From the NCBI GenBank assembly GCA_031763025.1, contig JASSKH010000021.1, positions 5,846,611-5,910,610 of the forward strand: 64,000 bases of DNA. Direction: 5' to 3'. A program made the position numbers and the translations under genes. Source of the DNA: Macrocystis pyrifera. Lineage: Eukaryota > Sar > Phaeophyceae > Laminariales > Laminariaceae. This document shows, in pieces, positions 3,411-59,563 of the stretch. The notes beneath the pieces were generated by a model. That model worked only from the letters and a program-made list of their open reading frames with translations. It ran no database searches and was not told where the DNA came from. Numbering within the stretch: position 1 is the stretch's first letter; each line of letters starts with the position of its first letter.

Positions 3411-4170
3411 ACACAAAAAAACCCATGAAAACCCCAGTTGCTGCTCGGGAAACGCCTGGCCGTACTAAATGTTTCAACAACGACTACGAACAATGCGGTC
3501 CCTGAAACGTTAATACGAGAAACAGGTATTCGCTCAAAACAAACGAAAAGGTCTATCTTGTTGAATACGTCACACATACGTCGCTGCCAATACCAATCGG
3601 TGTTCGACTATACGCTGTGCCGTATAACATACGTTGAACGAGTGACAGAGCCCGCGAACTCTACTGTACGTCCTCGACCACATCGAGTGTACTCGAAATC
3701 ACAAACATCGGATTTATCGGTGCATTGCCTGCCAATACTGTGGTACGACAGAAGACAAAACAAAACCCTCTCGAGAACAAGATATGTCCGTACACTCCCT
3801 GCCAACTCCATCCCCGGCGGCCTTCGCCGCCCCGTCTCCGGCACCGTATCATAGTCCACGGACGATTATCAACCATGGCAGTATCACAAACAGCGCGGAA
3901 AGATCTACTGCCGTAAATCGTGATGGCGAAATCGATCAACTTGTCAGACGCGTAAAGCGATTCCTAGCTCTCCGACGGCTAGGAATCGCATAGAAACATA
4001 TACTGAAAAACATATATATATATATATATGTATATATCCGTTTGTTTGCCAAGACCACACGGGATGTGCACCAGTTATCCCCCGTTGAGGACCTCCGTTG
4101 GCGCTAAAAACCATGGATATTGGCAAAAATGTGTTCCCCCTGCCCCCCTGCCCCCCTCCCCCCCATATCA
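3411..4170. other. No gene recognised; contains an AT dinucleotide run
   Basis: No coding signal was seen on either strand. An (AT)n microsatellite occupies about 4012-4037. Confidence 0.4.
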
Positions 4171-4371
4171 TGGCTGCTGCTTGTCGTATTGAGTGTCTTG
4201 CTGCGCAGCTTCTCGCCGCTCTCGACGAAGCGCCGTGGTGATCTCGGACAATAGCGCGCTTACCTCCATCGGTATCAGAGCGGGATAATGCCTGTTGTTA
4301 AGGATACCGGGCGCACGATGGACAGGGGCGGGGATGGCGGGGGCACAAAGTTTCCCGTTTAGAGCAGTCAA
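4171..4371 (-). CDS. Weak candidate 3' exon, unrecognised
   Basis: The minus strand is open for about 66 codons and ends in a stop at 4171. The C-terminal half (MEVSALLSEITTALRRERRE) looks like an amphipathic helix. There is no ATG at the 5' side and no convincing acceptor apart from a long C-run upstream on that strand. It could be a terminal exon or chance. Confidence 0.2.
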
Positions 4372-5240: not shown

Positions 5241-6736
5241 TTCCGGGTAATGAGGTCCACTTGGGGCTATGCAAAAGTGGAGGGGTCTTGCAAACTACGA
5301 CAGTATATGTTAGCAGCTTTACCGTAGCTTCCCGTGAGCATTGTGCATGTACCGTAAAACTAAAAAACATCAGCTGTGGCATCGAGGACTCAGTCGAGAC
5401 TCAGCCTTGCGAGTTGTGCGTGATACTGGCGATACTTCGGTTGCGCGTACTATTGGCACGGGTTATATGTGGGCTTATACATGATAAACATCCCGTAAAA
5501 GAGGACAAAATCTTAAGATTCAGAAATAAGAGAGTGCGCACATGTGTAGTGGATGATAAAAAAATGATGATAGCTCACCGTCCATCTCTAGGTGGAGTGG
5601 CCCATGACTGACCGCCCGTAATATCAAAGCCTTGAACCATGGGAACTCCGAGCCGATCCATGACGTTCTCAGCGCGCTCGTTCAAGTTGGCAACTCCACT
5701 TTGGCTGAAGATTCCTGTTAGCCGGAAGAGGCGACGCATTCACGCTCAAGGCTACGCTGGTACCCGAGAGTCTCCTGGTTCTCGGGTTTCCAGTGACTCT
5801 AATCTCTACAGGTTTTATCGGAAAAGAAAAAATAACGTCGCTATTTCAACACGCTGCGTTTAGAACTTCGGCCGGTTCGTGCCTACCGGAGAGCGACCGT
5901 GACTTGAAAGAGGCTCATCACAGCAGCTTGTGCTTCTCTCGAGATTGATCTCTCGCACGTTTTCAACAAAGGCGTACACCTCGACTTAGAGGTGCTGCAG
6001 TGATGGAATTCAGTCAAACTTCGGGGTGCATAAAATGAGACCAGAAGCAAGTCCGAACCGAACGTTTGCACTAACCCGCGATATTGAGGGATGCTCCTTA
6101 TATGGGGGGTGTGAGGGCGTCGGGGGCGCTAGACGGCAGTTGTAGGCAGCGAAACACGACTCAAGAGGTGGGGTTCGTGTATTCGAAGTTGCTATCGAGT
6201 ATCGAAATGCTCTCGAAAACAATAAAATGTTTCATTTCACGCAAGGGAGCAGTAGCACTATGGCCACATCACTGATGAAGAAATGGCCTTCGCTACGAGA
6301 TTTCTGTTCTCCATGCGGGTGATATATCTCTCAGGTGGTCGTCGTCCAAGACGCTGCGAGAGGAAACACGAAGTTCCCATGATGGGTAGTAAATGTCTAG
6401 GCCCAAAAACGTGCATGAATGGGCTAAAAAGCTCAGGATTCTTGTATAGTTGCATCAACTTCTCCACAACTACGAAATACGGATCTTGGTTGCAAATCCC
6501 TCACTCGAATTTCACGTCGTGTGTATATGTTGCAGAACCGCTTACGCGTGGTTGCTTGACGCATTCCTAAGGGTGATATCATCACCTTGACTACACGGTA
6601 ATATATTTCGCGATACATTCCTCCACTTCACAGCAGTTATTCTAGCCTATTCTGTGATCTCGGACTCGATTCTTCCACCATGAGTTTATGCGATTTGTGT
6701 CATCCCCCAGTCACGCGGTGGACGCTGCTGTCATCG
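5241..6736. other. No gene recognised, 3' flank of the spliced gene
   Basis: This lies downstream of the stop codon of the minus-strand gene at 6737. No coding signal, RNA gene or young repeat was seen. The 3' untranslated region and polyadenylation site of that gene should be here but cannot be placed. Confidence 0.35.
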
Positions 6737-9700
6737 TCAATTTTCTTCTTTGAAGTCCACACCCGTCACAATCGTCTCGTCGGCTGACATGTTCGTCCGC
6801 GGGATAGCGTTCGCCCTTCCGCCCGGTTGACGAACGTACTTGACCGAATCATGTCTACGGCAAGGCCAAGTTCCATATGGGGTATATTTCACATTCGAGG
6901 GCCGGTGGCAAACCGTCGTACTGTAGTTACTAAACAAGGTCACGAGTTGCTCACCAAGCGTGCAGATCTCCTCCGGCTCGAACTCGTTCGGCCAATCCAC
7001 ATGCTGTAACGTTATGTTGTTAGCCTGAGGGAAGACAGGGTGTATCGTTATCATAAGAGGGAGTTAGTCGCGAACCACTTCCGCTTCAACAGTAGAATCG
7101 CCGTTCTGCTCTATCATAAAAAGCAAGTCGCACGTTTGTCGCGATTTATTTCACGCAGGCGAAATTCGATGGCATTCAACTTGAAGTATGGGAGCTCAAC
7201 CCTGTGCACGATACACATACAAACCAAAGCATGTACCAGAGGGGAGGAGGGGGAGGGGCTGGGACTATAACGGGTATCTGGAAGACAGCCGAATGTGGAA
7301 ACTCATGCGAGATGAGCTGGGGAGTGGATGAGCATGGCGACTAAAAACAAAACAAAACAAAACATCAAAAACGACCGTCCTGAACAGCATCACGGACGCA
7401 CCACGACAGAGGTAGCCCTCGTTTAGGCGAAGCCATTTCCCACCGACGTGGTTGCTAAATAGAGGATAACTGAGTACCCAATGTCGAAATCACCATCTTC
7501 AGGTTATACATAAACATTTGTCGTGGGCCTATAGTCGGTCAGGGTATCGTTCTCTTCGTCTGAGTTTCGTGGGTTGGATAATGTACCAAGCTTCCTCCAA
7601 GGTTAGGATCTTCAGAAGGTAGCGTGCCGGTGCAGTTCTTGATTCCACGGGAATACCAGGCTGGTTTCAATTTGGGGGCTCGGCAGTGTATATACTGGTA
7701 TGTTCTGAACCAGGTATGGTACACCAGACATATACAACGTGTGCATCTGTTGGGTACGTGCGCGGATATCAGTTTGAGTTTTTGTTTTCTGCGGGAAGTA
7801 CGATTGGTTTCAGTGATGCGCACATTTCACGCTGTTTTCTTTGAGGTACAACATTGGTATGTCTACAGTGCTATTTTCCCACTCCAGAGCTGTTGCGGGC
7901 TCTCTCTTTCGTCAACGGAATACTAGATTATAGCGACGAGATCGTATGACAGCAACGACCACAAACACTACACCATGTCGCGGCGATTCAAAATGAAAAA
8001 CCGCCTGTGCTCACCGTCTCACGACATGTTGCCAGCCTGGGTTCGTACCCTTCCTCGTACTCCCGCACTCGATAATAGCGTACTCGCCGTCCAGCCGGTC
8101 AAACGCGAAGCTGTGTGTCGTCATGAAAGCCTCGCCCATGGGAATTCTGTTCTCGGGGCTTCCGCCCCCTGAGCGATAGAACATAACCGCCTCCTCCAGT
8201 AAACGTTCGTAGTGTACCCAGCTGTACGTTGACGGGTCGTGAGCGCGGGGGCATAGGTTGTGCAAGCGCGATGTCTATTGGCGTGGCAGGCATGCTATAT
8301 TACAATATAGGGCTGCACCTAAAACATGCGTCTGAGGTCCTTCGCTTGACGAGATCTATACCCTGCCAGAACCCCGACCTTGAGAAAAAAAAAGTGTAGA
8401 ACGCGACGAACACTGCGATGCCCCAGGTATGGCGCTGCTACGAGTACTGCTTAAACGACTATCGGTAGTACCCGGAGAAATCCGCGTACCAGCTAATACC
8501 CGTATTTTATTCCGGACGGCGTAGCACACAGAAGCACGTCGAAGGACGGAATAGCTAACTAGATTCTGGTGATGTGGAAGCGACCAACTGTTTTGCTCGT
8601 GGGTAGCAAGCTCAGCGCATGGTTATAAGTTCAAGCTCATTTTTGTTTTGTTAAATCATCACATTCAAGTTCCAGCTCATGGGAGGACACACGCTTAGCA
8701 ACCGTGTAGACCATCCGTGGTCACAGGCGTCGTCCTTTTTCATCGTAGTATGCTGCCTCGCGCTCTCGTGCTTGCAGCGACATCAGCTAAAAACAAAGAC
8801 ACGCCCAAATATTGTGACCGATCTGGGAGCAGCTATAATATCAATGTTCATTATATTTTTATCTGGAGTGGTCTAAATATCTCTGTGGTTTGTGAACCCT
8901 CTGGATATCGAGCCCTGGCCTTCTTGTCCACCGGAGGTGAAATTTGATATTTGAAATGAGATGGTCACCACGAACGTCCTTATGAGGATGGTACCTTATT
9001 TTCTGAGCGCCCCGCCCGAGGAGAGGCTCAATATCTGGCCCTAAACATATTTTCTGAGATGCTTGTTCGCGCCCAGCCCATCCAATATTTCCGTGCGCTA
9101 CTTATATAACCCTAAAAACAAACATCCTGCTAACTGTTACCTGTACCGAAGTAAAAATGTCATACTCTCGAGTAGTTGCTCCCGTAAAATACCCAGCCGG
9201 TCAAAAAACAATGTTGAGACAAAACGTGGAAACCCCTGCCGCGGGACAAGCCTCACACGCTTCTTTTATTAGGGCTTAGAAGAGTACTCACATATCGAGA
9301 TGGCCGCTTGACACCCGCCGGTCGGGATCGATCTGCAGGAAGTGCAGGCCGCATCCAAAGTACACAAAGTCCGCGTGCACCTCCGATGTCACGCACGATT
9401 CGAACTCCTGGCGAGCGGATGTACGTGGCTGGCGTCATCATGCACTTACATTTGCGGCAGTGAAACACGACGAAGTCTCTAAAATACACGACACGTGAGG
9501 AACAGGTTTTCGTAGAGGTGTGCCTTACCCGGTACCGGTATATACCTGTGTTAAATCTCCTCTGGTGAAAACGCAGACACATAAGAGTAGAAACGCCTGA
9601 GGTTTCACAGGGTGTGGTTAGGATCCACGCCCAGTCTTTGTACTACCTTGCAATGATGCTCGGTGGCATAGCGGTAATCGTTAGCACTAATGGAGTGTAG

Positions 9701-12700
9701 CAGTATATTTGGCGCTCTGGGTATATTTGGTTTTTGTGGGAAGCGGTAGCACGCATATCTTTGGTGTTTAGTGGGTCGTTACGTGTTTGTGTTTGCGACA
9801 GCGAACCCACCAACGCCTTTCACGGCGCAATCCAGCGGGGGGTGCCAGCCATTGAAAGGGTGATCAAAAACAACGAAGTAAAAACCAACGTCGGTACAGG
9901 TGACAGAAACACGTCAGAGACAATGTGCAGGCTTAAAAACTCGGTTAACCCTTTCGGTACTGCAGTTCCGTTTTGGGTACAAAAATCTTCGAATTCGAGA
10001 GGTTAGGCCCTTAAACGGGACAGCAGTTCAAGAAAGGGCTGACATTACAGTCGGTTTAGAGGCTAACGAAACATATCGTGCGACGCAAATGGGATACCGG
10101 TGGTTCCTTGGTTGGGGAGCTTCGTCAGTCAGAAATACTTCGGCGAACAAAAAAGGTGCTGCCTAGCCCTATCGTGGCACGCTTCCAGGAAGGGTGGTGG
10201 CTCCTTGCCTGCGCTCCTCGCACCGAGGTAATCAATATCGTACCCGATACACGGCCACGGAGAACGTTTACCTGCCCAACCCGACCACTATTGTCGTATG
10301 CGCTATAGCCTGGAAACAAATATACGTGTACTTCAGAACAATAACCTACCTGTAGTTGTTCACTTGGACGAGCTCAACAGGTCAGAAAACACCGAGCAAA
10401 ACTTGTGCAACTCCCACCGCGGGATGGGTCTAAGGTCATCCGCGCGCGGCTTAACATACCTTGGTATACTCCAGGCTGAGAACGAAGCCTTCGCCTTTGG
10501 GTGGATTGCCAAATTTGTTGACGCCCCGTTCAGCTCCGGTGCATCTCATGTCCACTAGGTTCGCGTTATCGCTATCACCATAGCTGATACACTGGTTCCT
10601 GCCGTCGGCGGCTTTTCTTTGCGACAACACCCAAGACAGCACGTTGGCTTGCATCTTCGAAAATGGTCGTAGTGATGGTGATTTGTTGTGGTGGCGGTGA
10701 TGGGGGTGGTGGTGGCGGCAGTGGTCATGATGATGCCCACAATGATGATGCCGGTCATGATAACAGTGGTGATGCAGACGATGACGATGATGGTTGTGAT
10801 GTTGGTGATGATCATTGTGGTGACGACAGTCGGGCGGGGAGGCAGCTCAGTTAGAAAATAAACAGACCATAGGGCTGAGGCAAGCACGGGTTCTGCGTAC
10901 GATCAAAAATCCAGACCGGGTGTAGTCGGTACACGCAGACGGGTCTCAGTTGCCAAGACGTACCGTGATCGTGGTGTCGGGTCTTCGCGTCATGCAGTCA
11001 TGATATGGCCAACGAGCAGGTCCAAGGGATACTCGCAGCATACTCTATTTTTCTTATACATGCTACCAGACAGCGTGGACCGTGAACTTCACCGTCGCAG
11101 GAAGAGGAGGAAGACGACGAAGGAAACCCTGAAAGGGATACGCCTGTGCGAGAGTATCTTACTCCCTCTGTGCTTATATTGAGGCACCATGGGTACAGTC
11201 CGGTTGACATTAGCGTGCATGCATTTTGTGCATGTTCAAGCAGTATGTATGGGGGTACATTGTGTGATATATACCATAGTACCAAATTATCAGCCGCCAA
11301 AGACCTTTAGAGCCAATCTGGCATGTACATCGCACCACAGGTTAGGCAAACACAAGAAAGAGCGGTCTGAGCTGTGATCCATATACGCTAGGTTTGCCCT
11401 CAAGTATTTCCTGCTACGAGATAGTACGTATCGTTCGCTCTGCGCACAACTGCAAGCACCGTTGTGGTATGAGTGTGAAAAGACAAAAAAAATGGTTTTG
11501 ACGTAATGGTACGTAGAGTAAACGTTTCTTGGAGAGCGGTTAACCCCCTTGGGACTTCAGAGGGGACAGTTGGCCCTAAACCGTGACCTTTTCAGCAACA
11601 GCAACTGCGTGATTGTAGAGTGGGCCACAATGGCTCCAGCGTCACAATGCAAGGGGTCATGCGGCACAGGCGCGACATGATATTACCCGTGCTTGAGGGC
11701 GTTCACGAGTATAGATGGTTAATACCATCAGTGTTACCAACCATCGTTGTGGTCGTTATCTCGGGGTTACGAGGGGATAAACACCGCTTAGTCTGTTCCG
11801 CCTAAAGGCCGGCTCGTTCCACCTACAGGTCGGCGCGACCCGGTTCGCAAGGAATTCAAAACGAAAACAGACGCCGGCGAACGACGACCATCACTCTCTT
11901 TGATCGAAATCGGCAGATCGAAAACAAGGAGGCATCTTACCCTCATGGTGCTGTCCCCAACCACGTGGATCTTGAACTCTTGGTCAGAATGTATACCAAC
12001 CTCAAGCGTCACGCCGTCACCGCTGTCTTCTTCCGACTTCTGCGTCGCGGCACGTTTCTCGATCGCCAAGAATAGTTGGTCTGCCTGATTTTGGAGCATT
12101 ATTCTCCTGAGCGCCAGACAGCACGCGACGTTCGGACGACCGTCCGGTAAGGTACGCCGTTGGTGGGCCTACGGCTTAGTTTATCGTCCCACAAAACATG
12201 ACGATTCTTTCTTGAAACCGTATGTGAGGTACTGTCCTGTGCAGTACTTCTGGGTTTGAGCAATGTTGTGCCACGCGGTGGATACGTACGACAAGCGCGA
12301 GTCTTGAAACCCGCCTCAAGCTTGGCACTTAAAGCTCAACCCGTGGTACATACAACCGAAATCTCTACCGCCATTGAAGGCTCATCATAGCGGTCATAGG
12401 CGCAAGGTTAGGTCTTGGCCCGTCGACCCTAGGCGCTGGAAAGCTCGCATGATGCATGGTACATACCATCGTAGTAACGGCACGTCATTGACCATGCTTT
12501 ATTCTAGAATGCCTTCATAAAAGGGATTTACGAGGACCTTTGCTGTTGCTATTATTGCGCAACGCGCGCGGTGTCGCGCAACCTCCGTGGTTCGTTAATC
12601 CATGACACCAACACAAACAAAAACGGCGAAGGAATATGTGTTCGACGCTGTTCGAGCCGAAGAAGTTCTGTCAAACGAGTATACTACCTAGAAACACCGA

Positions 12701-14822
12701 GATTGGCGTGACTATTGAGTCAAAGCACCGAGCGTCGCGTGACTATTAATAGTGCTCCATCACCGTTAGTATTCTGAAGTATACACCAATTCAAGGGGTT
12801 GGTAATAGCGGGTATCGCGGCAGAGTCGCGATTTTAGGAGCCGGTGTTTTTGTTGACATCTCGCACCATTCTGGAGGGATAAAAAGCGATCCCTTAGAAC
12901 GACACAAACGCCGCCAAGAGAAACGCCACGGCAGCAGTGGTGACTCACTTTCTGAGGTCCTCACACCACGTTCGCAACATCTCACCCCAAGCACAACCTC
13001 ACCAGAAGCTTGTTTTGCGCAAAACCCGATCGGCATGTGTATGCGCTACATAGTCCAAAAAAGCAACACGATTGGAAAAGTACAAATATAATTAGAATCG
13101 ACATACGAACGGTTCACACTTGAGAAGTTCAACTTGTCAAACATTTTCGGGTCGAAAGCGGTATATGCCCCTGAGGTTGGATGAGTCCTGGGCATTGAAA
13201 CCATGAACCCTCGCGGAGACGCTACCCCACAAGGACGAGAGTTTATTCACATCTTGATGTCTCACCAGGCAATGTACCATTCCGGTAGCAGCTCACTAGG
13301 GTCGTTCACGCCGTGGAATCTCGGCTTCTGCACGTAGTTCCGGAGCTCCGCTAACTTGATCAGGTCAGGCACGTCGTAGACAGCGCAGACGTTTCTGGAG
13401 AACGCCGAGAGGAGGAGGAGGAGCAATGGCGCCGCCGCGAACGCTGCGAGGGGGCGCCCTGCCAGCCGAAAGAGGGGGGTTGGTTGGGTTTATTGTACAA
13501 CGGGCACACCGACTTAAAAGAGGGCACGCTACGACACGAGAAAATTTCAGCCGGGAGAGGCCAACTCGGCTGGGTCCGCCAACAGCAAAGCTACTGCATT
13601 TTGCCCCACCCGAATAACAAAGGCGGCTAGTTAGGAGGAGGCGTTTTCGGCCTGTACACACAGTAACCCCTTTGGGTGTTGAAGAGAGCGACCAAAACAA
13701 CGACAAATATGGTGCTATCGACCGTCTACGGTCAGCACCATCGCCCTGGCAATGCCGATAAGATCATGTTGCGCCCGTGCCGTGCTTCTCCTTGCATCAA
13801 CCACTGCAACTCGGACACCAAGACGTGTACCATCCCCAAATCACGCTGTGGCCCTTTCGCTGCAACAATCAGCTTCATCGTCAATTTTGTGGCCCTTTTG
13901 CTGCAACAATCAGCTTCATCGTCAATTTTCACCTTTGGAGTCCCACAGGGGTGGAATCGGGGTACCCATTGCATACAGCACTACCCGATAGCCATCAGAG
14001 TCACGCTAGCGTGCGAGGTTCGTCGAACCCGAAATAGTAGATACAGTGTACGCCACAGTAGTACTGCAGGGACTATCTGCTGGGCAACTTCAGCCACCTG
14101 AATGTGCGGAGACCACTGCGTAGTGTGGGACAACCAACATTGTCGCTGGCTATCATTAAATCAAGGGGAACACCCGGGAGAGGGAGTGGTTGTGTACTGC
14201 ACTACACCCGCGCTGGCCTACAGAATCACGCCAGCTAGTGAGATATATTGAACCCAAGCATAGATGGCGTACATTACAACATGCAGAAGGAACTACCTGA
14301 AGCGTCGTCTCAGGTTAAACTTCGTGTGCATCACCACCCAAACGCCTACAGACTCACGCCAGCCCGTGAGACTTATCGAAAACGGAAGTACGTTACAGCA
14401 GTAGTAGCAGAAACTACAATAGTAGATGTTGTGCTGCTTCTGTCGCGTCAGTATATAGTTGACAGTTGAGGTACAACCAACACACTGTGCGCGATCATGG
14501 AATCAGATGCCATATTATGCAGTTTCCTCGTCGGTGCCGAGTCCAATCTTGTGCATAGACACGCTTTTTAATAGGTGCCTTCTGTGTGTCACCGTTCGAG
14601 CGAGCAATCATGCCCCGCATCGAAAAGGTACAGCCCGTTTCTATTTCATGACATCTTCTCGTCGGCTTCGCGTCGATTTATGAAAGACATGCCATGCATA
14701 GGTGCCTTCTGCGTGTTGCAGTTCGAACAAGGAGACACACCTCGCACCAAAAAATAGTATTTCCGTCTAATGAAGCCATGCCATGCTAGCTCACCTAGCG
14801 CCAGCCATCGCCGCGATACCAT
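6737..14822 (-). CDS. Secreted GDS-motif (SGNH/PC-esterase-like) protein, ten exons
   Basis: Exons, 5' to 3' on the minus strand: 14822-14795, 13458-13266, 13045-13003, 12870-12785, 12106-11941, 10654-10460, 9407-9292, 8221-8049, 7660-7587 and 7024-6737. Reading phase is kept at all nine junctions. Every intron is GT-AG (donors GTGAGC, GTGAGA, GTGAGG, GTATAC, GTAAGA, GTATGT, GTGAGT, GTACGA, GTACAT). The total is 1362 bases, about 453 residues plus stop. The N-terminus (MVSRRWLALG, then PLLLLLLSAF ending NVCA) is a textbook signal peptide. Exons 5 and 6 join to make HVVGDSTMRMQANVLSW, the GDS block of SGNH/PC-esterase/NXPE-type proteins; exon 7 has ADFVYFGCGLHFLQ, resembling the following strand block. 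Several Cys and the sequons NCT, NIT and NYS fit a secreted glycoprotein. Likely role: an esterase or transferase acting on wall or matrix polysaccharide (inference). The catalytic Asp/His pair was not located. Exon 4's donor is the least certain. Confidence 0.8.
10660..10850. repeat. Degenerate GRT/ATG trinucleotide tract in intron 5
   Basis: Imperfect GAT/GGT/GTG trinucleotides run for about 190 bases just upstream (on the minus strand) of the exon that starts at 10654. It lies within the 1286-base intron of the spliced gene. The open frames here are repeat artefacts. Confidence 0.7.
13849..13930. repeat. 41-bp tandem duplication in intron 1
   Basis: Two copies of a 41-base unit beginning GTGGCCCTTT and ending GTCAATTTT differ at about one base. 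They lie inside the first intron (13459-14794) of the minus-strand gene. Confidence 0.75.
13977..14395. repeat. Three diverged repeats with a conserved hairpin, intron 1
   Basis: Around 13977-14040, 14200-14264 and 14331-14390 a unit recurs with the pattern CACTACCC, CTACAGA, TCACGC, hairpin loop, GTGAG, then TCGAA-like. The stem sequence changes between copies but pairing is largely kept (CACGCTAGCGTG in the first, CTCACG/CGTGAG in the third). All lie in intron 1 of the minus-strand gene. A further pair of diverged ~130-bp repeats follows at about 14570-14780. Confidence 0.45.
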
Positions 14823-21709: not shown

Positions 21710-22053
21710 ATCGTATATCGTGGGATGATTGCAAAATATCCTCGAGATGGTTATCGATGAATAGCTTGCACAAGCGTTTGTCGCCGGCAATGCCATCGAT
21801 AGACATCTCGCACAATCTTTTGTGGTCGGCAATGACCGTCGATAGACCTCTCGCACAGTCTACTGTGGCCAACAATGGCTATCGAGAGACATCTCGCACA
21901 ATCAATTGCGGCCTGCTGTGACCATCGATAGACGCGGTTCACCATCTATTGTGTTCGACAATGGCTATCGATCGACAATATCACCAGTCTATTGTCGGCG
22001 ACAATATCTATCGATAGATATTTTCCACAATCTGTTGTCACAGACAATATACA
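21710..22053. repeat. 43-bp minisatellite, about eight units
   Basis: Consecutive units of 43 bases (one of 42) start with ATCGATAGAC or variants and end with CAATGACC or CAATGGCT. Each carries self-complementary pieces such as ATTGTCG/CGACAAT and TATCGATA. Units are 60-85 percent alike by eye. The last three units are included in the ~1.57-kb tandem array. This is not a CRISPR array: there are no spacers between the units. Confidence 0.8.
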
Positions 22054-22596
22054 TCGATGACCTGTTGCCAGCTGTTATGCTGGCTGTGGTTTTGGCGCTC
22101 TCGAAGAAGTACAGCGCCGCGATGGCCTCGAGGATGGGATGGAGAAGGCCCCCGCATGTGGAGCTCACATGCTGCTCGAGGACGAAGCGAGACATCAGCA
22201 TTGATGTGTGGTTGGGCGCAGCTGCTGGAAGATGAAGAGCTCTCTGACCCAACGAGCACCCCGGCGAAGCAGTTTCGAATCGACTTCCGCCTGCCCTGCC
22301 CTCTTTGCTGGCAGCTATTAATAGTCAACTCAGTTACGCCCTTGCATCAAACGCTTCCAGAAAAAACACAAAAACTGTATAAGAAGGGTAGCGATTCACA
22401 ATCCAGTCGGGAACATAAGCGATAGGAAACCAACCACCTTGTTCAATCTACGTTTCCGCCTGCATAAGAACTGGCCTAAAAGAAGGGTGGCGATTCACAA
22501 CAGAGCCGGAAAAAGAACCGATCGGACACCGGCTTTTTCAATCCACGTTTGTTTCCGACTCCACAAGAATTGGCCTTATTGCATAACAATGTAGTG

Positions 22597-22930
22597 CCTC
22601 TACTGTGGCGTAGTTTTGTGACCACAGAAGTTGTGACTCTTTAGGATTGAAGAATCGGCACGAACACGGGTTGTGCTGTAGAAAAAACGGCTTAATGTGA
22701 AGAACACACACAAAACTTTCTACTGTAGAAATGAAGAATCGACACTGACACGGGTTGTGCTGGATGTCGACAGGTAGAAAAAAAATGGTTTCATGACACA
22801 CACAAAACTCGTACCAGGTATGTATCTCTCTAGGATTGAAGAATCGGCACGTACAATCCTCTTGTGTGTTGGATGTCGACGGGTGGAAAGAACGGTTTGA
22901 TGTAAAGAACACAGACACACAGAACCCGTC
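22597..22930 (-). repeat. Three head-to-tail modules of the hairpin repeat (copy 1 of array)
   Basis: Three modules of about 95-125 bases follow one another, each with GAAGAATCGGCAC or GAAGAATCGACAC, TTGTGCTGGATGTCGAC and a TTAATGTGAAGAACACA-like end. The first retains the CTGTGG/CCACAG hairpin. The same triple occurs in the other three array copies (about 24160, 25725 and 27290). Confidence 0.7.
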
Positions 22931-23142
22931 GTAGATATGCCCCAGTGCCACCTACCTTGCTTGCAGCAAACTGCGACATCTTGTGGTTTCTCACATAGAC
23001 TACTGATGATAGAAATTTGCGAACTCGCGTGAGGGTGTACCATCGAAGTTTTGAAAAATTGAAATGTTGAAAAACTTCGGAACATAATGTTAATATTCAT
23101 GTGCGCGGACCCCACACGAATACCAACCAACACAACACGATC

Positions 23143-23489
23143 TTTTCTTTTTTTTTTTTTTTTTTTTTAATCATCACTTTTACTTTCCAGCCCACTCGTA
23201 CGAGGTTTTACCCTCGACGATCTTCTGGACAAGCCGTGGTCACAGGTGTCGTCCCTTCTCCCCCCCGGTACGTGCCTTTAGTTTTTATCGCGCATAGGGT
23301 TCAGCATTCCCACTGCTCGTCGATTTTCATCGAATGTAGCCAACTCACGCTTTCGCGCTTTCCGCTTATCAATTTTTTATGCAAGAAAAAGTCCCTATGA
23401 GCATGCACTCGGTGAGACTCGAACTCACGAAATTGATCTTGACAGGCTCGCGGACCACCTACCAAGCTACCGGGGACGCCGCTATGACC
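23143..23489 (-). mobile_element. SINE, tRNA-Asp-like head, copy in array
   Basis: Antisense to the plus strand: a T-run (the tail), then the body, then a tRNA-like head. In sense orientation the head has an A-box-like TAGCTTGGTAGG, an anticodon-loop-like CTGTCAA (GTC, Asp) and a T-arm GTGAG-TTCGAGT-CTCAC with B box. It ends at CTATGACC, directly joined to the minisatellite. Confidence 0.8.
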
Positions 23490-24707
23490 ATCGATAGACG
23501 CGGTTCACCATCTATTGTGTTCGACAATGGCTATCGATCGACAATATCACCAGTCTATTGTCGGCGACAATATCTATCGATAGATATTTTCCACAATCTG
23601 TTGTCACAGACAATATACATCGATGACCTGTTGCCAGCTGTTATGCTGGCTGTGGTTTTGGCGCTCTCGAAGAAGTACAGCGCCGCGATGGCCTCGAGGA
23701 TGGGATGGAGAAGGCCCCCGCATGTGGAGCTCACATGCTGCTCGAGGACGAAGCGAGACATCAGCATTGATGTGTGGTTGGGCGCAGCTGCTGGAAGATG
23801 AAGAGCTCTCTGACCCAACGAGCACCCCGGCGAAGCAGTTTCGAATCGACTTCCGCCTGCCCTGCCCTCTTTGCTGGCAGCTATTAATAGTCAACTCAGT
23901 TACGCCCTTGCATCAAACGCTTCCAGAAAAAACACAAAAACTGTATAAGAAGGGTAGCGATTCACAATCCAGTCGGGAACATAAGCGATAGGAAACCAAC
24001 CACCTTGTTCAATCTACGTTTCCGACTGCATAAGAACTGGCCTAAAAGAAGGGTGGCGATTCACAACAGAGCCGGAAAAAGAACCGATCGGACACCGGCT
24101 TTTTCAATCCACGTTTGTTTCCGACTCCACAAGAATTGGCCTTATTGCATAACAATGTAGTGCCTCTACTGTGGCGTAGTTTTGTGACCACAGAAGTTGT
24201 GACTCTTTAGGATTGAAGAATCGGCACGAACACGGGTTGTGCTGTAGAAAAAACGGCTTAATGTGAAGAACACACACAAAACTTTCTACTGTAGAAATGA
24301 AGAATCGACACTGACACGGGTTGTGCTGGATGTCGACAGGTAGAAAAAAATGGTTTCATGACACACACAAAACTCGTACCAGGTATGTATCTCTCTAGGA
24401 TTGAAGAATCGGCACGTACAATCCTCTTGTGTGTTGGATGTCGACGGGTGGAAAGAACGGTTTGATGTAAAGAACACAGACACACAGAACCCGTCGTAGA
24501 TATGCCCCAGTGCCACCTACCTTGCTTGCAGCAAACTGCGACATCTTGTGGTTTCTCACATAGACTACTGATGATAGAAATTTGCGAACTCGCGTGAGGG
24601 TGTACCATCGAAGTTTTGAAAAATTGAAATGTTGAAAAACTTCGGAACATAATGTTAATATTCATGTGCGCGGACCCCACACGAATACCAACCAACACAA
24701 CACGATC

Positions 24708-25053
24708 TTTTCTTTTTTTTTTTTTTTTTTTTAATCATCACTTTTACTTTCCAGCCCACTCGTACGAGGTTTTACCCTCGACGATCTTCTGGACAAGCCG
24801 TGGTCACAGGTGTCGTCCCTTCTCCCCCCCGGTACGTGCCTTTAGTTTTTATCGCGCATAGGGTTCAGCATTCCCACTGCTCGTCGATTTTCATCGAATG
24901 TAGCCAACTCACGCTTTCGCGCTTTCCGCTTATCAATTTTTTATGCAAGAAAAAGTCCCTATGAGCATGCACTCGGTGAGACTCGAACTCACGAAATTGA
25001 TCTTGACAGGCTCGCGGACCACCTACCAAGCTACCGGGGACGCCGCTATGACC
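24708..25053 (-). mobile_element. SINE, tRNA-Asp-like head, copy in array
   Basis: Nearly identical to the copy at 23143 apart from T-run length. It was duplicated with the array and is not an independent insertion. Confidence 0.8.
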
Positions 25054-26273
25054 ATCGATAGACGCGGTTCACCATCTATTGTGTTCGACAATGGCTATCG
25101 ATCGACAATATCACCAGTCTATTGTCGGCGACAATATCTATCGATAGATATTTTCCACAATCTGTTGTCACAGACAATATACATCGATGACCTGTTGCCA
25201 GCTGTTATGCTGGCTGTGGTTTTGGCGCTCTCGAAGAAGTACAGCGCCGCGATGGCCTCGAGGATGGGATGGAGAAGGCCCCCGCATGTGGAGCTCACAT
25301 GCTGCTCGAGGACGAAGCGAGACATCAGCATTGATGTGTGGTTGGGCGCAGCTGCTGGAAGATGAAGAGCTCTCTGACCCAACGAGCACCCCGGCGAAGC
25401 AGTTTCGAATCGACTTCCGCCTGCCCTGCCCTCTTTGCTGGCAGCTATTAATAGTCAACTCAGTTACGCCCTTGCATCAAACGCTTCCAGAAAAAACACA
25501 AAAACTGTATAAGAAGGGTAGCGATTCACAATCCAGTCGGGAACATAAGCGATAGGAAACCAACCACCTTGTTCAATCTACGTTTCCGACTGCATAAGAA
25601 CTGGCCTAAAAGAAGGGTGGCGATTCACAACAGAGCCGGAAAAAGAACCGATCGGACACCGGCTTTTTCAATCCACGTTTGTTTCCGACTCCACAAGAAT
25701 TGGCCTTATTGCATAACAATGTAGTGCCTCTACTGTGGCGTAGTTTTGTGACCACAGAAGTTGTGACTCTTTAGGATTGAAGAATCGGCACGAACACGGG
25801 TTGTGCTGTAGAAAAAACGGCTTAATGTGAAGAACACACACAAAACTTTCTACTGTAGAAATGAAGAATCGACACTGACACGGGTTGTGCTGGATGTCGA
25901 CAGGTAGAAAAAAATGGTTTCATGACACACACAAAACTCGTACCAGGTATGTATCTCTCTAGGATTGAAGAATCGGCACGTACAATCCTCTTGTGTGTTG
26001 GATGTCGACGGGTGGAAAGAACGGTTTGATGTAAAGAACACAGACACACAGAACCCGTCGTAGATATGCCCCAGTGCCACCTACCTTGCTTGCAGCAAAC
26101 TGCGACATCTTGTGGTTTCTCACATAGACTACTGATGATAGAAATTTGCGAACTCGCGTGAGGGTGTACCATCGAAGTTTTGAAAAATTGAAATGTTGAA
26201 AAACTTCGGAACATAATGTTAATATTCATGTGCGCGGACCCCACACGAATACCAACCAACACACAACACGATC

Positions 26274-26620
26274 TTTTCTTTTTTTTTTTTTTTTTTTTTA
26301 ATCATCACTTTTACTTTCCAGCCCACTCGTACGAGGTTTTACCCTCGACGATCTTCTGGACAAGCCGTGGTCACAGGTGTCGTCCCTTCTCCCCCCCGGT
26401 ACGTGCCTTTAGTTTTTATCGCGCATAGGGTTCAGCATTCCCACTGCTCGTCGATTTTCATCGAATGTAGCCAACTCACGCTTTCGCGCTTTCCGCTTAT
26501 CAATTTTTTATGCAAGAAAAAGTCCCTATGAGCATGCACTCGGTGAGACTCGAACTCACGAAATTGATCTTGACAGGCTCGCGGACCACCTACCAAGCTA
26601 CCGGGGACGCCGCTATGACC
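26274..26620 (-). mobile_element. SINE, tRNA-Asp-like head, copy in array
   Basis: The third array-borne copy, again differing only in homopolymer length. The preceding text has one extra CA unit compared with the other copies. Confidence 0.8.
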
Positions 26621-27844
26621 ATCGATAGACGCGGTTCACCATCTATTGTGTTCGACAATGGCTATCGATCGACAATATCACCAGTCTATTGTCGGCGACA
26701 ATATCTATCGATAGATATTTTCCACAATCTGTTGTCACAGACAATATACATCGATGACCTGTTGCCAGCTGTTATGCTGGCTGTGGTTTTGGCGCTCTCG
26801 AAGAAGTACAGCGCCGCGATGGCCTCGAGGATGGGATGGAGAAGGCCCCCGCATGTGGAGCTCACATGCTGCTCGAGGACGAAGCGAGACATCAGCATTG
26901 ATGTGTGGTTGGGCGCAGCTGCTGGAAGATGAAGAGCTCTCTGACCCAACGAGCACCCCGGCGAAGCAGTTTCGAATCGACTTCCGCCTGCCCTGCCCTC
27001 TTTGCTGGCAGCTATTAATAGTCAACTCAGTTACGCCCTTGCATCAAACGCTTCCAGAAAAAAAACACAAAAACTGTATAAGAAGGGTAGCGATTCACAA
27101 TCCAGTCGGGAACATAAGCGATAGGAAACCAACCACCTTGTTCAATCTACGTTTCCGACTGCATAAGAACTGGCCTAAAAGAAGGGTGGCGATTCACAAC
27201 AGAGCCGGAAAAAGAACCGATCGGACACCGGCTTTTTCAATCCACGTTTGTTTCCGACTCCACAAGAATTGGCCTTATTGCATAACAATGTAGTGCCTCT
27301 ACTGTGGCGTAGTTTTGTGACCACAGAAGTTGTGACTCTTTAGGATTGAAGAATCGGCACGAACACGGGTTGTGCTGTAGAAAAAACGGCTTAATGTGAA
27401 GAACACACACAAAACTTTCTACTGTAGAAATGAAGAATCGACACTGACACGGGTTGTGCTGGATGTCGACAGGTAGAAAAAAATGGTTTCATGACACACA
27501 CAAAACTCGTACCAGGTATGTATCTCTCTAGGATTGAAGAATCGGCACGTACAATCCTCTTGTGTGTTGGATGTCGACGGGTGGAAAGAACGGTTTGATG
27601 TAAAGAACACAGACACACAGAACCCGTCGTAGATATGCCCCAGTGCCACCTACCTTGCTTGCAGCAAACTGCGACATCTTGTGGTTTCTCACATAGACTA
27701 CTGATGATAGAAATTTGCGAACTCGCGTGAGGGTGTACCATCGAAGTTTTGAAAAATTGAAATGTTGAAAAACTTCGGAACATAATGTTAATATTCATGT
27801 GCGCGGACCCCACACGAATACCAACCAACACAACACGATCTATA

Positions 27845-27930
27845 AGTACACGGTGCGTGTGTGTTCTTCACATTAAACCGTTCTTCTACTCGTCGGCATC
27901 CAGCAAGCCCAGTAAAAAAAAAAAAAAAAA
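27845..27930 (+). repeat. Partial hairpin-repeat module with A-run
   Basis: GTGTGTTCTTCACATTAAACCGTTCTTCTACTCG then CATCCAGCAAGCCCAG matches the 5' half of the module and ends in a run of A and CAA triplets. It begins just after the array ends. Confidence 0.6.
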
Positions 27931-28547
27931 AACAACAACAACAACATTGTCCATGCTGTTACGAAGAACCTGGTACATTTTTGAATCCAGTATGTTGTAT
28001 TTTTCAGGGCCTTCCTCGGGATTAATCCCGCGGACCATTGAATCGGTGAATCAACCTGTTACGAATAATGCGAGTGCGTGTAACAGATTAACGAAGGAAC
28101 AATGACAAGCACCAGAAGATAGACAAATTCAGGGCGAATCGAATGACGTTTTTTTTTTTTTGTCAAGGACCGGAAGATTACCACGGGAATATATTTTTGT
28201 GATCGTTTACTCCTTATTCGTCAATCTGTTACCAGTATGGTTGATTCACCGCGATTCAACATTTCGCGAGATGAAGGAACGCCCTGCCTGGTACTTTTCG
28301 AATGGGACATTTTATTATACAATCCCGCTCGCTTGTCAAGTCGGGGTAAAGCACACTTAACTTACTACGTACGTGTGGTAAGACATGTCATACGTATATA
28401 TATACCAGGTATATAAATATGCAGCGAACCGTTCTCAATTACGATCGGCAAAAACGGTATTAATGCCAAGACAAAATGGAAATGTCAGAGACTTACCACA
28501 AACAAGATCCAATAGCGCTTTTAAATAAGCTACCGATCACTATCATT
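27931..28547. other. No gene recognised
   Basis: AT-rich unique sequence with a T-run near 28150 and TACGTATATATATACC-type motifs near 28390. Nothing coding was seen. Confidence 0.35.
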
Positions 28548-28896
28548 ACGGGGGACCATGCCGGCGTCCCCCGTGGCTTGGTTGGTGGTCTGCGTGCCTA
28601 TCAAGATCAATGTCGTGGGTTCAATTATCACCGAGTGCATGCTCGTTCTTGCATAAAAAATTGATTAGCGGAAGCGCGAGAGCGTGAGTTACCTACATTA
28701 GATGAAAATCGACGAGCAGAGGGAATGCTGAACCCTATGCGCGACAAAAACTAAAGGCACGTACCGGGGGGGGGAGAAGGGACGACACCTGTGACGACGG
28801 CTTGTCCAGAAGATCGTCGAGGGTAAAACCTCCGACGAGTGGGGTGGGAAGTAAAAGTGATGATGAAAAAAGAAAAAAAAAAAAAAAAAAAAAAAA
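28548..28896 (+). mobile_element. SINE, sense copy, first half of a dimer
   Basis: Starts ACGGGGGACCATGCCGG, with an A-box-like TGGCTTGGTTGGTGG and a GGTTCAATTATCACC B-box region. The body follows (GAAAATCGACGAGCAG, CTATGCGCGACAAAAACTAAAGGCACGTACCGG, GACGGCTTGTCCAGAAGATC), ending in a long A-run. The next copy starts directly after the tail. Confidence 0.8.
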
Positions 28897-29251
28897 CGGG
28901 GGACCATGCCGGCGTCCCCCGTGGCTTGGTAGTAGGTGGTCCGCGTGCCTATCAAGATCAATGTCGTGGTTCAATTCTCACCGAGTGCATGCTCGTAGGG
29001 ACTTTTTCTTGCATAAAAAATTGATGAGCGGAAAGCGCGAGAGCGTGAGTTAGCTACATTCGATGAAAATCGACGAGCAGTGGGAATGCTGAACCCTATG
29101 CGCGATAAAAAATAAAGGCACGTACCGGGGGGGAGAAGGGACGACACCTGTGACCACGGCTTGTCCAGAAGATCGTCGAGGGTAAAAACCTCCTACGAGT
29201 GGGGTGGAAAGTAAAAGTGATGATAAAAAAAAAAAAAAAAAAAAAAAAAAA
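28897..29251 (+). mobile_element. SINE, sense copy, second half of a dimer
   Basis: A full-length copy starting in the A-tail of the previous one, so insertion into a poly(A) tail or dimer retroposition is likely. It has the same head and body and ends in about 28 A. Confidence 0.8.
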
Positions 29252-29480
29252 CTTCTCTTTCGAATTGTCTTCTTCTTTGTTTTGTTTTCTCTTCTTTGTT
29301 TCGTTCGTTTCTCGATTCCATGGAGTGTTGTATGTCGTGCCTGTCCGATTTAGTATGATGACATGGCATCGCATCGCATATGTGGCAACGTAGGATCTCG
29401 TATCTTTGTGGACCACAACACTTGTCTATAGGATTGAAGAATCAGAACGGACTTTTACTGGATGTGGACGGCACTGCGTT
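29252..29480 (-). repeat. Hairpin repeat, distal part plus partial module
   Basis: Minus-strand order matches the 16.1-16.7 kb copy in part: GATTCTTCAATCCTATAG, then GTGGTCCACAAAGATAC-like, GCGATGC..CATGTCATCATACT, CAGGCACGACATAC, CCATGGAATCGAGAAACGA, then an A/G-rich tract that abuts the SINE tail. Confidence 0.55.
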
Positions 29481-29499
29481 GTCTACTCTGCTTACTGCA

Positions 29500-29860
29500 T
29501 ATTATTATAATAGTTTTGTGATCACAGAGAGAGCTATAAATAATATCTCTGCAGGATTGGAGATGCCGTACAGACACTGCTGTGGTTGTGCTGCATGTCG
29601 ACGGGTGTGTATTGTGTTAAAACCTTAAACCGATTTTTCTACCCATCGACATCCAGCACAACCAGTGTACATTGTGTGTGTGCACAGCCAGTGTCCGTGC
29701 CGATTCTTCACTCGTAGAGAGATGTGTGTGTGTGTATGTGTGTTCTTCACATTAAACCGTTCTTCTACTCGTCGTCGACATCCAGCAAGCCCAGTGTCCG
29801 TGCTGATTCTTCACCCTAGAAAGATACGAGCTCTGTGGTCACAGACTACGACACAGACAT
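29500..29860. repeat. Facing hairpin-repeat modules
   Basis: A minus-strand module (about 29510-29605) faces two plus-strand modules (about 29630-29735 and 29745-29860), the latter with (GT)n between them. Together they make an imperfect foldback of about 150 bases per arm. Confidence 0.5.
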
Positions 29861-30255
29861 AACACACCGTAATGCATTAATAGCCTACGCAATACCATGC
29901 CTTCGCACTAGGTGCGGCCGACACAACATACATACATACGCCAGCAACCAAAATACACCATAAAGAAAGAGAAGCAACGAAGAAACCAAACCGAAAAAGA
30001 ACAACAAAAAGAAAAAGAAAAAGAAAAGGAGAAGAATCCCAAATAAATAAATAAAATGGGAAGCCAAAGCTCAGACACATACATACTTACCCCGAGCATG
30101 AGCCAAAAGGGACGTGCAAGGGGAAAGATACGAGAAGGAAAAAGGGGACTATGCATCCCGGTGAACACTTAACTAAGTAAAAAGAGCAATAGTGAGTGGG
30201 CCAAGATACGCTCGTCACCCACCCACTATGTAGTACTTCTTTCATAAGGATAAGA
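29710..30255 (+). repeat. ~520-bp repeat, inverted partner of 37202-37722
   Basis: From GTGTGTTCTTCACATTAAACC through CTATGTAGTACTTCTTTCATAAGG this stretch is the near-exact reverse complement of the segment inserted in the gypsy pol region at 37.2-37.7 kb. It has one hairpin-repeat module at one end and AAATAAATAAAT, CCCGAGCATGAGCC and TGCATCCCGGTGAACACTTAACTAAG landmarks. A shorter rearranged piece with the last landmark is at 45.49-45.56 kb. Confidence 0.8.
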
Positions 30256-30274
30256 AGGGAAAAAAGAGATACAA

Positions 30275-30545
30275 GTTGTTGTTGTTGTTTTCTTCACATT
30301 AAACCGTTCTTTCTACCCGTCGACATCCAGCACAACCAGTGTCCGTACCGGTTCTTCAATCCTAGAGAGACACAAGTTCTGTGGTCACAAAGCTACGCCA
30401 CAGATATAGAGATACTACGTTGCCACGTACGCAATGCAAAGTCATGTCATCATACTGCGTACGACAGGCACGACACATGCCCATTCCATGACCTAGAGAA
30501 ACAAAAACGAAACAAAGAAAAAAAAAAAAAAAAAAAACAAAGACA
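30275..30545 (+). repeat. Hairpin repeat, module plus distal tract
   Basis: GTT triplets, TTCTTCACATTAAACCGTTC, the TCTGTGG/CCACAGA hairpin, GTACGCAATGC, CATGTCATCATACT, GACAGGCACGACACATGC, CCATGACC, then an AACAAAAACGAAAC-type A-rich end. This is a clean shorter form of the family. Confidence 0.65.
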
Positions 30546-33787: not shown

Positions 33788-34359
33788 TGTGCCGTCTTAT
33801 TTATTATGGTGTTTTTGGTTTTATTTCATGGGAGAATAAAAAAAGAACAGAACCGAGATCTTGAAGTTTCCTTGAACTCTACGTACGTGGACCACGACAC
33901 GAACGAGTCGTTCACGCCGGGTTGGGCGATCAACCTTCACCGCCAGCTCCTCGAAGGAAGGAACCGAACGTGGAACCTCCTGGGGAGCTGCGTAAGGGGT
34001 TGCTGGACCAGCAAGGAGCTCTCGCTCTCGCGGAGCATGGGCTGCTTGCGCTGTCGTCGTCAGAAAAGAAGAACATTAGATTGTTTTGATACTGCTGCTG
34101 CTGTAGTCTCGTCCTATTCGTCTCTAAAGTTGTTTTGCCTAAAGCAGCTGCAGTTGGGCGGCCGCAAGGGACGCGATGGTGGCCAAGGTATTGATGCCCT
34201 CTCTCTCCGTAGTGGCCGATGCACAAGTAAGTGCTGGAGCCCAGCTGTGTACAAGAGTATAACCAAGCATGTAGCGTCGTGACCCATCATGAGCCCTCTC
34301 TGTAACCTATACAAAATTGTACAATGCCTCCGAGGTCTTGTGCAAAAGCAAATTTTATC
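33788..34359. other. No supported gene, flank of the gypsy element
   Basis: A plus-strand frame (33806-34282) and an overlapping one reading LLDQQGALALAEHGLLAL are protein-like for some 40 codons but without start or splice support. Confidence 0.3.
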
Positions 34360-34598
34360 TGATAGGGATTGCGATGTTGGCACTCTTGAATATGGTTGCC
34401 ACTGAACTGATTGCTGGTTCGATGTGTAGATGCAGTAGCTCAAGTCAAGGAATCCTTTTGATGTATTTTATTAACTGTCTCGTCTGCTGGTTGAGAGAGA
34501 GGGAAGATGTGGACTGAGCCGATGTGGCGTGTGATCCTCCTTGCTTCTCTGTCCTCCTCTCTACTGCTACCTCTCTGGGACCCTACAATAGCTTGTCC

Positions 34599-34634
<36 letters not shown>

Positions 34635-35308
34635 CCATCACTTTTACTTCCCAGCCCACTCGTAGGAGGTTTTACCCTCGACGATCTTCTGGACAAGCCG
34701 TGGTCACAGGTGTCGTCCCTTCTCCCCCCCGGTACGCGCCTTTATTTTTTGTCGCGCATAGGGTTCAGCATTCCCACTGCTCGTCGATTTTCATCGAATG
34801 TAGCCAACTCACGCTGTCGCGCTTTCCGCTTATCAATTTTTTATGCAAGAAAAAGTCCCTATGAGCTCTGGGTAGCAGTTGATCCAACGCTCCTTCCAAG
34901 TTACTGTTTCTTGGAAGAACCCAGCTACTCTCTCTAGTCTTTCTTTGGTACGTTCTCACTATTTTACCTATCATCTTGCCCGATAACTCATCCTGATTTC
35001 TCACTCAACGTAGGTCTCATCCAATTCACTGCTATTGATTGGTTTACTGCTGTAACAGTCTCCTTTCCCTAGTTTTCCCATGCTCTCACCTACCTGGTAC
35101 TCAATAATACCCTTCCTGTATATAAGCCGTTTAGAGTACTTAGTTGAAGCTCTCAAGAGGCAATTCGGAAAGCTCTCATATCAGCCTAAACTATGAATCC
35201 CCTATGTGAACATCCTAATGATTTCTACTGAAACCCTCCTTCACATACTGATTCTCAATGAAACTAAACTGTCCACACTAATTGCTAGAGGAAGTCAATC
35301 TTACCACT
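34360..35308 (-). repeat. 3' LTR of the gypsy element, split by a SINE
   Basis: Starts TGATAGGGATTGCG on the plus strand and ends at CTTACCA (give or take 2 bases). It matches the other LTR throughout except for the SINE at 34604-34864, a short indel near 35000 and one near 35090. Confidence 0.9.
34604..34864 (-). mobile_element. SINE inserted in the gypsy LTR
   Basis: An antisense copy with T-run first, truncated within the head at CCTATGA. The uninterrupted LTR at 44.6 kb shows the empty site. GCTCT is present on both sides (34599-34603 and 34865-34869), a 5-bp target duplication, so this copy is younger than the gypsy insertion. Confidence 0.9.
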
Positions 35309-35809
35309 CTTGCCCCCCTAAGTTCATTGTCATCTTCCTATCTTAGGTGTTCAATGAAATAATTACGCTGAGGCTGAGATTGCTAGTACCATGTACTTGG
35401 GTGGTACAACAATTTCAACTTAAACATAGACTAAATTCAAGTACTTAGACTCCTCAATAAATCCAAGTGATGTCTCAAATTCCTGGTCACTTACTAGTCG
35501 TTAACCTGTCCATCCCCAGCAATCACTAACCCTTTAACACATCGGATGTGAGTGAGTCCTCCATCTGATGTTTAACTAAGCACAGCAGTAAAATACTGGC
35601 TATAGTCTGTTTTTAACTTACCACCATTCCACCCTTCCATTGAATACGTGATCGGACAGTGTGTATTACAATTTCTTGTTTCACAGGATCATGCCTTCTC
35701 GTCTAGTTCATTTCACTGGGATCACAGTATTCGCATTATTATCATTCCCCCTATTTATGACTTTGTTTCTGAATACTACCTAGCTACACCATCATCTGCC
35801 CCTCTACTC

Positions 35810-40570: not shown

Positions 40571-41479
40571 ATTCTTACCAGCCGGCGTTATTCCAAATAC
40601 TGTAATGTTGGTGCAGCCAGGGCTGGCCTAGGGGCATTAGGTGTTCCTTTACCTGGGTAACACCAAACTTGTATTGGCCTCCTAGATTTCCTTCCTATAA
40701 CTCCCTTTGCGCGTTTTTCCTTCCCGGGGGTTATTTCAAACTTCGGTTGATCAGCCGAAGGGGGTGCGCAAATATCCCCTACAGTATTGGATATTGACTC
40801 GGACACGGTATAACCATTGACTGCTACACTCGGCTTATTCTTGCCGCTTCGAACTCGCATTTCATCCAGGGGCCTAATCCGGTTTTTTATACGGTTCGGA
40901 CGGTCAGATCTCGTTATTTCGCTGCTACTATCAATAACGGGAAGTGTGCAGAGTGGAGATAAAGAACATACGCTCAACGGTGGTCCGGGGTAATTACTTC
41001 CATCACTTCCTAGAAGGCGACAGTTTATTTCCCTACCACTCTTACCGTTCACAGGCAGATAGCATCCTGCCTCTTGGCCCAAACCTGCGGTGTGCGACGC
41101 AGAACTGGCCGAACTTTCTTCTTCTCTGTTGGTCATGGTTCTGTCACCACCGACCTTTTTATCCGTATAAGCTCCCCCTGTGGTTTTCTGCGGAGGGAGG
41201 AACGGCCGCGATGCTACCGGCAAGTGGGCCAACCTACCGTTGCGTCCTCATGAATTTCGATTATTTCTGTCGGCACGCGTTTGGGCCCACTGGCGCAACC
41301 TGTGTTGCCAACGGCGCCATCGCCTCTCTGCTTCCTCTGGAGTGCCATCAGCTACAGCGGGGTGAATTAATGCGGAATGATTAATAAATGTTTCAGGACA
41401 ATCTCTGGCAATTGAGGCAGATGTTCCCATATAATCTGCGGGCAGCATCCCTCTCCTCTCGGGTTTTGAACGAAACTTA

Positions 41480-44332: not shown

Positions 44333-44383
44333 CGTAAGATTCCGTAAGAGCTTAGAAGAACACGGAAATGTCGACGACGCCAC

Positions 44384-45064
44384 TGATAGGGATTGCGATG
44401 TTGGCACTCTTGAAGATGGTTGCCACTGAACTGATTGCTGGTTCGATGTGTAGATGCAGTAGCTCAAGTCAAGGAATCCTTTTGATGTCTTTTATTAACT
44501 GTCTCGTCTGCTGGTTGAGAGAGAGGGAAGATGTGGACTGAGCCGATGTGGCGTGTGATCCTCCTTGCTTCTCTGTCCTCCTCTCTACTGCTACCTCTCT
44601 GGGACCCTACAATAGCTTGTCCGCTCTGGGTAGCAGTTGATCCAACGCTCCTTCCAAGTTACTGTTTCTTGGAAGAACCCAGCTACTCTCTCTAGTCTTT
44701 CTTTGGTACGTTCTCACTATTTTACCTATCATCTTGCCCAATAACTCATCCTGATTTCTCATCTTACTCAACGTAAGTCTCATCCAATTCACTGCTGTTG
44801 ATTGGTTTACTGCTGTAACAGTCTCCTTTCCCTAGTTCTCCCATGCTCTCACCTACTCAATACTACCCTTCCTGTATATAAGCCGTTTAGAGTACTTAGT
44901 TGAAGCTCTCAAGAGGCAATTCGGAAAGCTCTCATATCAGCCTAAACTATAAATCCCCTATGTGAACATCCTAATGATTTCTACTGAAACCCTCCTTCAC
45001 ACACTGATTCTCAATGAAACTAAACTGTCCATACTAATTGCTAGAGGAAGTCAATCTCACCACA
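44384..45064 (-). repeat. 5' LTR of the gypsy element
   Basis: About 680 bases, TGATAGGG to CACCA on the plus strand. It gives the intact form of the site where the left LTR carries a SINE. The sequence next to its inner edge reads TGGCGTCGTCG in sense and may be the primer-binding site; the tRNA is not identified. Confidence 0.9.
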
Positions 45065-48417: not shown

Positions 48418-48442
48418 GCAACAGCAGCAGCAGCAGCAGCCC

Positions 48443-48474
<32 letters not shown>

Positions 48475-59519: not shown

Positions 59520-59563
59520 CGTGGGCTTCTGGTACCAGACCTCAAACGTTCAAGACACTAGTG

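Follow-up and report, generated by a model that had tools for sequence, protein, structure and literature searches.

We analysed a 64,000-nucleotide stretch of the Macrocystis pyrifera genome (NCBI GenBank assembly GCA_031763025.1, contig JASSKH010000021.1, positions 5,846,611 to 5,910,610 of the forward strand; hereafter the window, in which coordinates are counted unless a contig is named), where an original prediction made from the letters alone had placed a ten-exon, minus-strand gene of 453 residues between 14822 and 6737. Our analysis suggests that the gene at this locus belongs to a clustered kelp family and is one of several copies, which would encode a secreted SGNH-type protein resembling the PC-esterases, a reading to which we give a probability of about 0.75. 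Relatives in the same genome (n = 10) point to a gene of nine exons running from 14822 to 4168 on the minus strand, and the copy in the window is probably a pseudogene, unless a two-base insertion that it carries is an assembly error.

Conserved exons among paralogs and the proposed nine-exon structure

The same genome (223 contigs, 537,376,219 bases) was searched with the core of the window gene and with one of its paralogs, E, which returned 39 (E 8e-40 to 7e-4) and 66 (E 3e-39 to 6e-3) exon matches respectively, those of the query itself included. Ten paralog regions were compared, comprising three near-identical copies (A to C), five copies on the same contig, C202 (D to H), one on C210 (I) and one on C211 (J). 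The regions D to J formed the diverged set (n = 7), of which some are incomplete, and matches were counted at E < 0.001. As megablast at E 1e-20 found no match to the window gene in D to J, the exons are what is conserved. GT-AG boundaries stand at corresponding places in the diverged paralogs; the exon ends were sought with the phases of the window copy, and agreement in phase is thus partly built in, but the openness of the spliced E5 to E12 of D, E and I through to the stop codon is not. The NG86 dN/dS ratios were 0.22 (D-E), 0.25 (D-I) and 0.19 (E-I), with 0.23-0.38 in six other pairs, all of these being rough figures as dS exceeded 1 in most pairs. Frame breaks were seen in E5 of H and in E10 of F. 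The copies A to C, at about 5593k, 5692k and 5736k of C202 (L009-L014), differ from one another by 0.01-0.03% over 10.6 kb, and their near-identity reflects either a duplication of very recent date or a fault of the assembly. Another fragment with matches to E11 and E12 lies at 5532-5534k of C202.

The exon labels follow the presumed numbering of the original prediction, which came without an exon list; we deduced from that numbering that two exons were meant to stand between E2 and E5, with a further one between E8 and E10, and E3, E4 and E9 are absent from our model. The first exon, E1 (14795..14822), supplies the start codon and nine codons (MVSRRWLAL) ahead of a GTGAGC donor, just as had been predicted. 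MVSRRWLALG is identical in A to C and finds weak matches in D (E 0.67), H (0.11) and J (0.90), and the support for E1 comes from its position, its splice site and the near-identical copies. E2 (13266..13458) carries a hydrophobic, signal-peptide-like stretch and the N-terminal part of the protein (GRPLAAF...LPEWYIAW), in keeping with the claim that a signal peptide continues into the second exon, and was matched in three of the diverged paralogs (E, H and I). It joins E5 in phase without intervening exons. The third exon, E5 (11941..12106; RIMLQNQ...FKIHVVGDSTMR), has the GDST motif at its end and was matched in six (D to I). The motif GDSTMR, which was thought to be created by the junction of exons 5 and 6, is contiguous at 11958-11941 and is directly followed by a GTAAGA donor. 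The fourth exon, E6 (10460..10654; MQANVLSW...SLEYTK), was matched in five (D to H), the match in I being weak (E 0.098), and the fifth, E7 (9292..9407; EFESC...DFVYFGCGLHFLQ...HLD), in six (D to I). The sixth exon, E8 (8015..8221), which ends at a GTGAGC donor and holds the frameshift of the window copy, was matched in 7/7. An early model had used a donor of E8 at 8023|8022 (GTGAGA), which was dropped since in the relatives the frame is preserved with the donor that follows 8015. The seventh exon, E10 (6955..7024; ANNITLQHVDWPNEFEPEEICTL plus one base), has its GTGAGC donor at 6954 and was matched in five (D, E, H, I and J); the eighth, E11 (5579..5714), encodes IFSQSGVANLNERAENVMDRLGVPMVQGFDITGGQSWATPPRDG and part of an R, and was matched in six (D, E, F, H, I and J), the match in G sitting past the fetched stretch of that region. 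The terminal exon, E12 (4168..4291), encodes HYPALIPMEV...KQQP followed by the stop codon and was matched in five (D, E, F, H and I).

E11 joined to E12 gives DGRHY. Six further hits were obtained on C196, C192 and at C211:13.85M, and all five that were fetched hold the joined E11/E12 block in one open frame, reading DGRHY in L032, L033, L035 and L036 and DGCHY in L034. The contiguity of this block in five more distant loci supports the E11/E12 junction. One of these more distant relatives, L036, also has GDST and YFGCGMH.

Seven of the nine exons lie within the range first proposed and have GT-AG ends, as was claimed for nine junctions there, and two lie outside it. The introns of the model are 990-1336 bases long with GT-AG ends, against means of 1,057 and 1,203 bases given for two assemblies of Saccharina japonica (PMC4421812, PMC6507550), and the layout of the gene is a usual one for kelps. 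A fragment of a dispersed repeat lies at 8640-8741, within the intron that separates E7 from E8; the repeat recurs near 23.2, 24.7 and 26.3 kb, and a shorter core of it is found again near 29.1, 30.9, 33.4, 34.7 and 62.8 kb.

A two-base insertion in the window copy

Of the 11 copies that were compared, only the one in the window has a 2-bp insertion in E8 (8073..8074, minus strand), where it reads GCTATTATCGAG against GCTATTCGAG in A, B and C. The insertion is absent from 10/10 relatives, as judged by alignment in A to F and H and by reading and exon length in G, I and J, whose E8 is of the same length as that of E, F and H. The spliced window product runs off frame after residue 282, and translation would end at residue 305, upstream of DGRHY, while an intact copy would have about 410 residues. 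On account of the insertion, an extra exon or another donor was required in the first map to restore the phase.

A copy truncated in this way is best read as a probable pseudogene, provided that the two bases are no error of the assembly. We consider it possible, though on balance unlikely, that the insertion is such an error and the copy functional. All nine exons are open when the insertion is set aside, and the two stop codons that A to C share in E2 and E11 are missing from the window copy. The divergence of its exons from A to C (0.5-0.6%, 6-7 of 1231-1232 sites) is about half that of its introns (1.0%, 91-92 of 9412-9415). The assembly was made from PacBio reads (PMC10498591), so that an indel error is possible, which counts against the pseudogene reading; A and C each show one further single-base deletion in otherwise near-identical sequence, and B a 9-base insertion. 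Against a functional copy, however, the insertion consists of two bases and lies outside any homopolymer.

Motifs of the protein family and putative function

Six members (D, E, I, H, B and F), with identity to the first falling to 49%, were aligned for their motifs. GDST and the following R, the histidine of FGCGLH and the whole of DGRHY are invariant in 6/6, as are several cysteines, and the family has the signatures FGCGLHFLQ and GQxWAxxxxDGRHY. The N-terminus is hydrophobic by Kyte-Doolittle alone (maximum 19-residue mean 2.01 at residue 12), and the encoded protein is probably secreted. In paralog E there is in addition a hydrophobic C-terminal segment, which may be a membrane anchor. In the mechanism that we propose, the N-terminus would route the protein to the secretory pathway. 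The catalytic triad would consist of the GDST serine together with the aspartate and the histidine found in DGRHY, and the histidine of FGCGLH would occupy the oxyanion-hole position. Such an enzyme would move or remove acyl groups, probably acetyl, on cell-surface or wall polysaccharides.

To our knowledge, no activity has been assigned to the kelp family. By analogy with CASD1 and NXPE1, acyl transfer or removal on secreted or wall glycans may be expected, and the protein would most likely act on surface glycans, as an acyl-esterase or O-acetyltransferase that is secreted. A broader proposal, which we put forward tentatively and with a good deal of doubt, is that a kelp-expanded secreted SGNH branch lying outside Pfam acylates or de-acylates brown-algal wall polysaccharides, for instance alginate or fucoidan. 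Its copies would turn over rapidly by birth and death, several of those clustered on one contig being broken by different lesions. A clustered family that is invisible to Pfam and has esterase-like motifs offers candidate wall-polysaccharide enzymes of a commercially used seaweed.

Several results weigh against the assignment and the exon map given here. Searched against Pfam with E values up to 10 allowed, none of the six members (0/6) found a model, and a search of PHROGs gave no match. The only hit in NCBIfam was at chance level (rpiA, E 0.16), and the PDB sequence search returned nothing except five chance-level hits to GH31 (E 0.87). A scan of the genome for PF13839, made exon by exon and limited to the best candidates, gave nine places, three of them over the cut-off and none in the cluster. 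On the side of the map, E1 has no secure match outside the near-identical copies. The best chains of our gene finder, a simple one based on splice-site weights and amino-acid frequencies, share the core exons but never reproduce the nine-exon model, and several of them drop E1 or E7 or add exons. The gene-finder score also favours the tail first proposed over E11 and E12 (5.4 vs -0.1), the codon table behind it having been derived from core exons of this very gene. In placing the 3' end, the conservation of E11 and E12 among the relatives was given more weight than this score. Two PF13839-matching loci of the same genome, L029 and L030, carry a DCLHYC motif. Matches to the motif pattern were found in some IMG/VR and GTDB contigs, among which no relative was confirmed, and no literature on such a family in brown algae was found as judged by titles and abstract openings of the top-listed items.

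The failure of any Pfam model to detect the family would also suit a secreted protein of non-catalytic or lectin-like nature, with an SGNH-like set of motifs kept by descent. We hold this to be improbable, as the triad-like residues are invariant in all six members though their identity to the first falls so low.

The 3' end and the discarded exons

In the original prediction the last exon ran to 6737, across the donor 6955|6954, and the frame 6955-6740 is indeed open and leans mildly towards coding (72 codons, 5.4 log-odds). The gene finder ended its chain at 6737 in one run and, when three intron costs were tried, did so at the two that were stricter. However, similarity to the relatives stops or weakens at this donor. 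It stops within the donor in D, E and I and extends some way past it at lower identity in H and J, and a second piece past the donor in paralog E has 26% identity and an internal stop. The proposed stop codon itself falls in a short repeat (6731..6758, minus strand) with a second copy in intron 1 (13916-13943). We read 6954-6737 as intron.

The exons that replace this tail came to light in different ways. The interval 5714-5579 first came up in a gene-finder run, the one with the most lenient setting out of three, and 4291-4168 was found by seeking a completion of D-x-x-H; both were later matched in diverged paralogs. Seven candidate acceptors followed by a histidine codon were available for E12, two of which (4291 and 2305) have a good acceptor score, and 4291 was chosen because it is followed by HY.

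A candidate for the E3 of the first map (13187 to about 13112) had a coding score of -1.5 and a best E of 0.51 in the seven diverged paralogs, and one for E9 (7200 to about 7123) scored 0.3 in its own frame with a best E of 0.92, both at chance level; the two were matched in A to C only. A candidate for E4 near 12977-12947 had a coding score of 0.0, the score being the only measure applied to it. A ten-exon gene of 453 residues ending at 6737 is very improbable, since the tested extra-exon candidates have no above-chance match in the seven diverged paralogs, whose sequences do conserve E11 and E12, the similarity is lost or weakened at 6955|6954 and the stop codon lies in a repeat shared with intron 1. 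In the 453-residue product, the extra exons that could be tested and the terminal read-through are unconserved; the prediction missed two exons and was drawn from a frameshifted copy. An exon chain built from sequence only can soak up a frameshift through false exons, and paralogs in the same genome set the map right.

Reality of the gene

The score of the minus strand in the gene finder was 22.3, whereas 300 dinucleotide shuffles had a mean of 1.6 (standard deviation 1.9, maximum 12.4) and none of them (0/300) reached that value. The plus strand scored 2.6, and the control region 22001-30400 gave 1.5 and 3.1. The frames of the locus are short, as originally stated, but they exceed the limit of about 110 codons set for them, the longest minus-strand stop-to-stop frame within 15000-6600 having 132 codons and one plus-strand open reading frame (13676-14101) having 141. 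Under lenient costs, loose phase-consistent GT-AG chains of at least 10 exons arose in 100/100 shuffles, and in 32/100 such a chain also reached at least 400 residues, so that the phase-consistent chain from which coincidence had been judged very unlikely is no argument by itself. That open frames and splice-like sites merely happened to line up at this locus is ruled out, being next to impossible given that 0/300 shuffles equal the real score and that the exons are conserved in diverged paralogs, the open ones with dN/dS near 0.2, even though loose chains are so readily obtained. The locus is a genuine, ordinary multi-exon gene; the spliced minus-strand gene of the original prediction is real, and its exon map was only partly right.

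Other elements in the window

A tandem array of about four units of about 1.56 kb occupies 21915-27776, the compared 300-base stretches being 95-100% identical from unit to unit; part of the unit occurs again at 34.6 kb and, in inverted orientation, near 29.0 and 33.1 kb. There are two copia-type LTR (long terminal repeat) retrotransposons, one at 47035-53633 (plus strand) with gag, integrase and RVT_2 matches and terminal repeats 97% identical, and the other at 53906-59807 (minus strand) with RVT_2 and Pol_BBD matches and terminal repeats 99% identical. A further element at 34359-45063 (minus strand) has RVT_1 and RNase H matches (37732-39033) and is flanked by direct repeats 98-99% identical.

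Comparison with known enzymes

The kelp family shares with the canonical GDSL/SGNH hydrolases the GDS of Block I and the DxxH of Block V. It differs from them in having no GxND at the presumed place of Block III, where FGCGLHFLQ stands, and in having no Lipase_GDSL match in Pfam.

The PC-esterases are defined, in PMC2824669, by a signal peptide, GDS, a W or H that replaces the N of GxND, and a DxxH before the last helix. The same account places them in stramenopiles among others, states that at the time of writing they were mostly missed by family profiles, and describes for four of five subfamilies a cysteine pair that braces the termini of the domain (PMC2824669). For CASD1 and NXPE1, both of which have GDS and DXXH, PMC12216134 gives the role of O-acetyltransferases of sialic acid. 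Compared with this family (Pmr5/TBL, Cas1p/CASD1 and NXPE; PF13839), the kelp proteins differ in that they are undetected by PF13839 and have signatures of their own, and the kelp models built here are without the 10-TM (ten-transmembrane) acyltransferase domain. They share with it the hydrophobic N-terminus, the GDS motif and a D-x-x-H near the C-terminal end, which a helix would follow, and likewise appear to have a histidine at the presumed GxND position. While membership in the PF13839 family is not established, the kelp family may by its motifs be regarded as PC-esterase-like.

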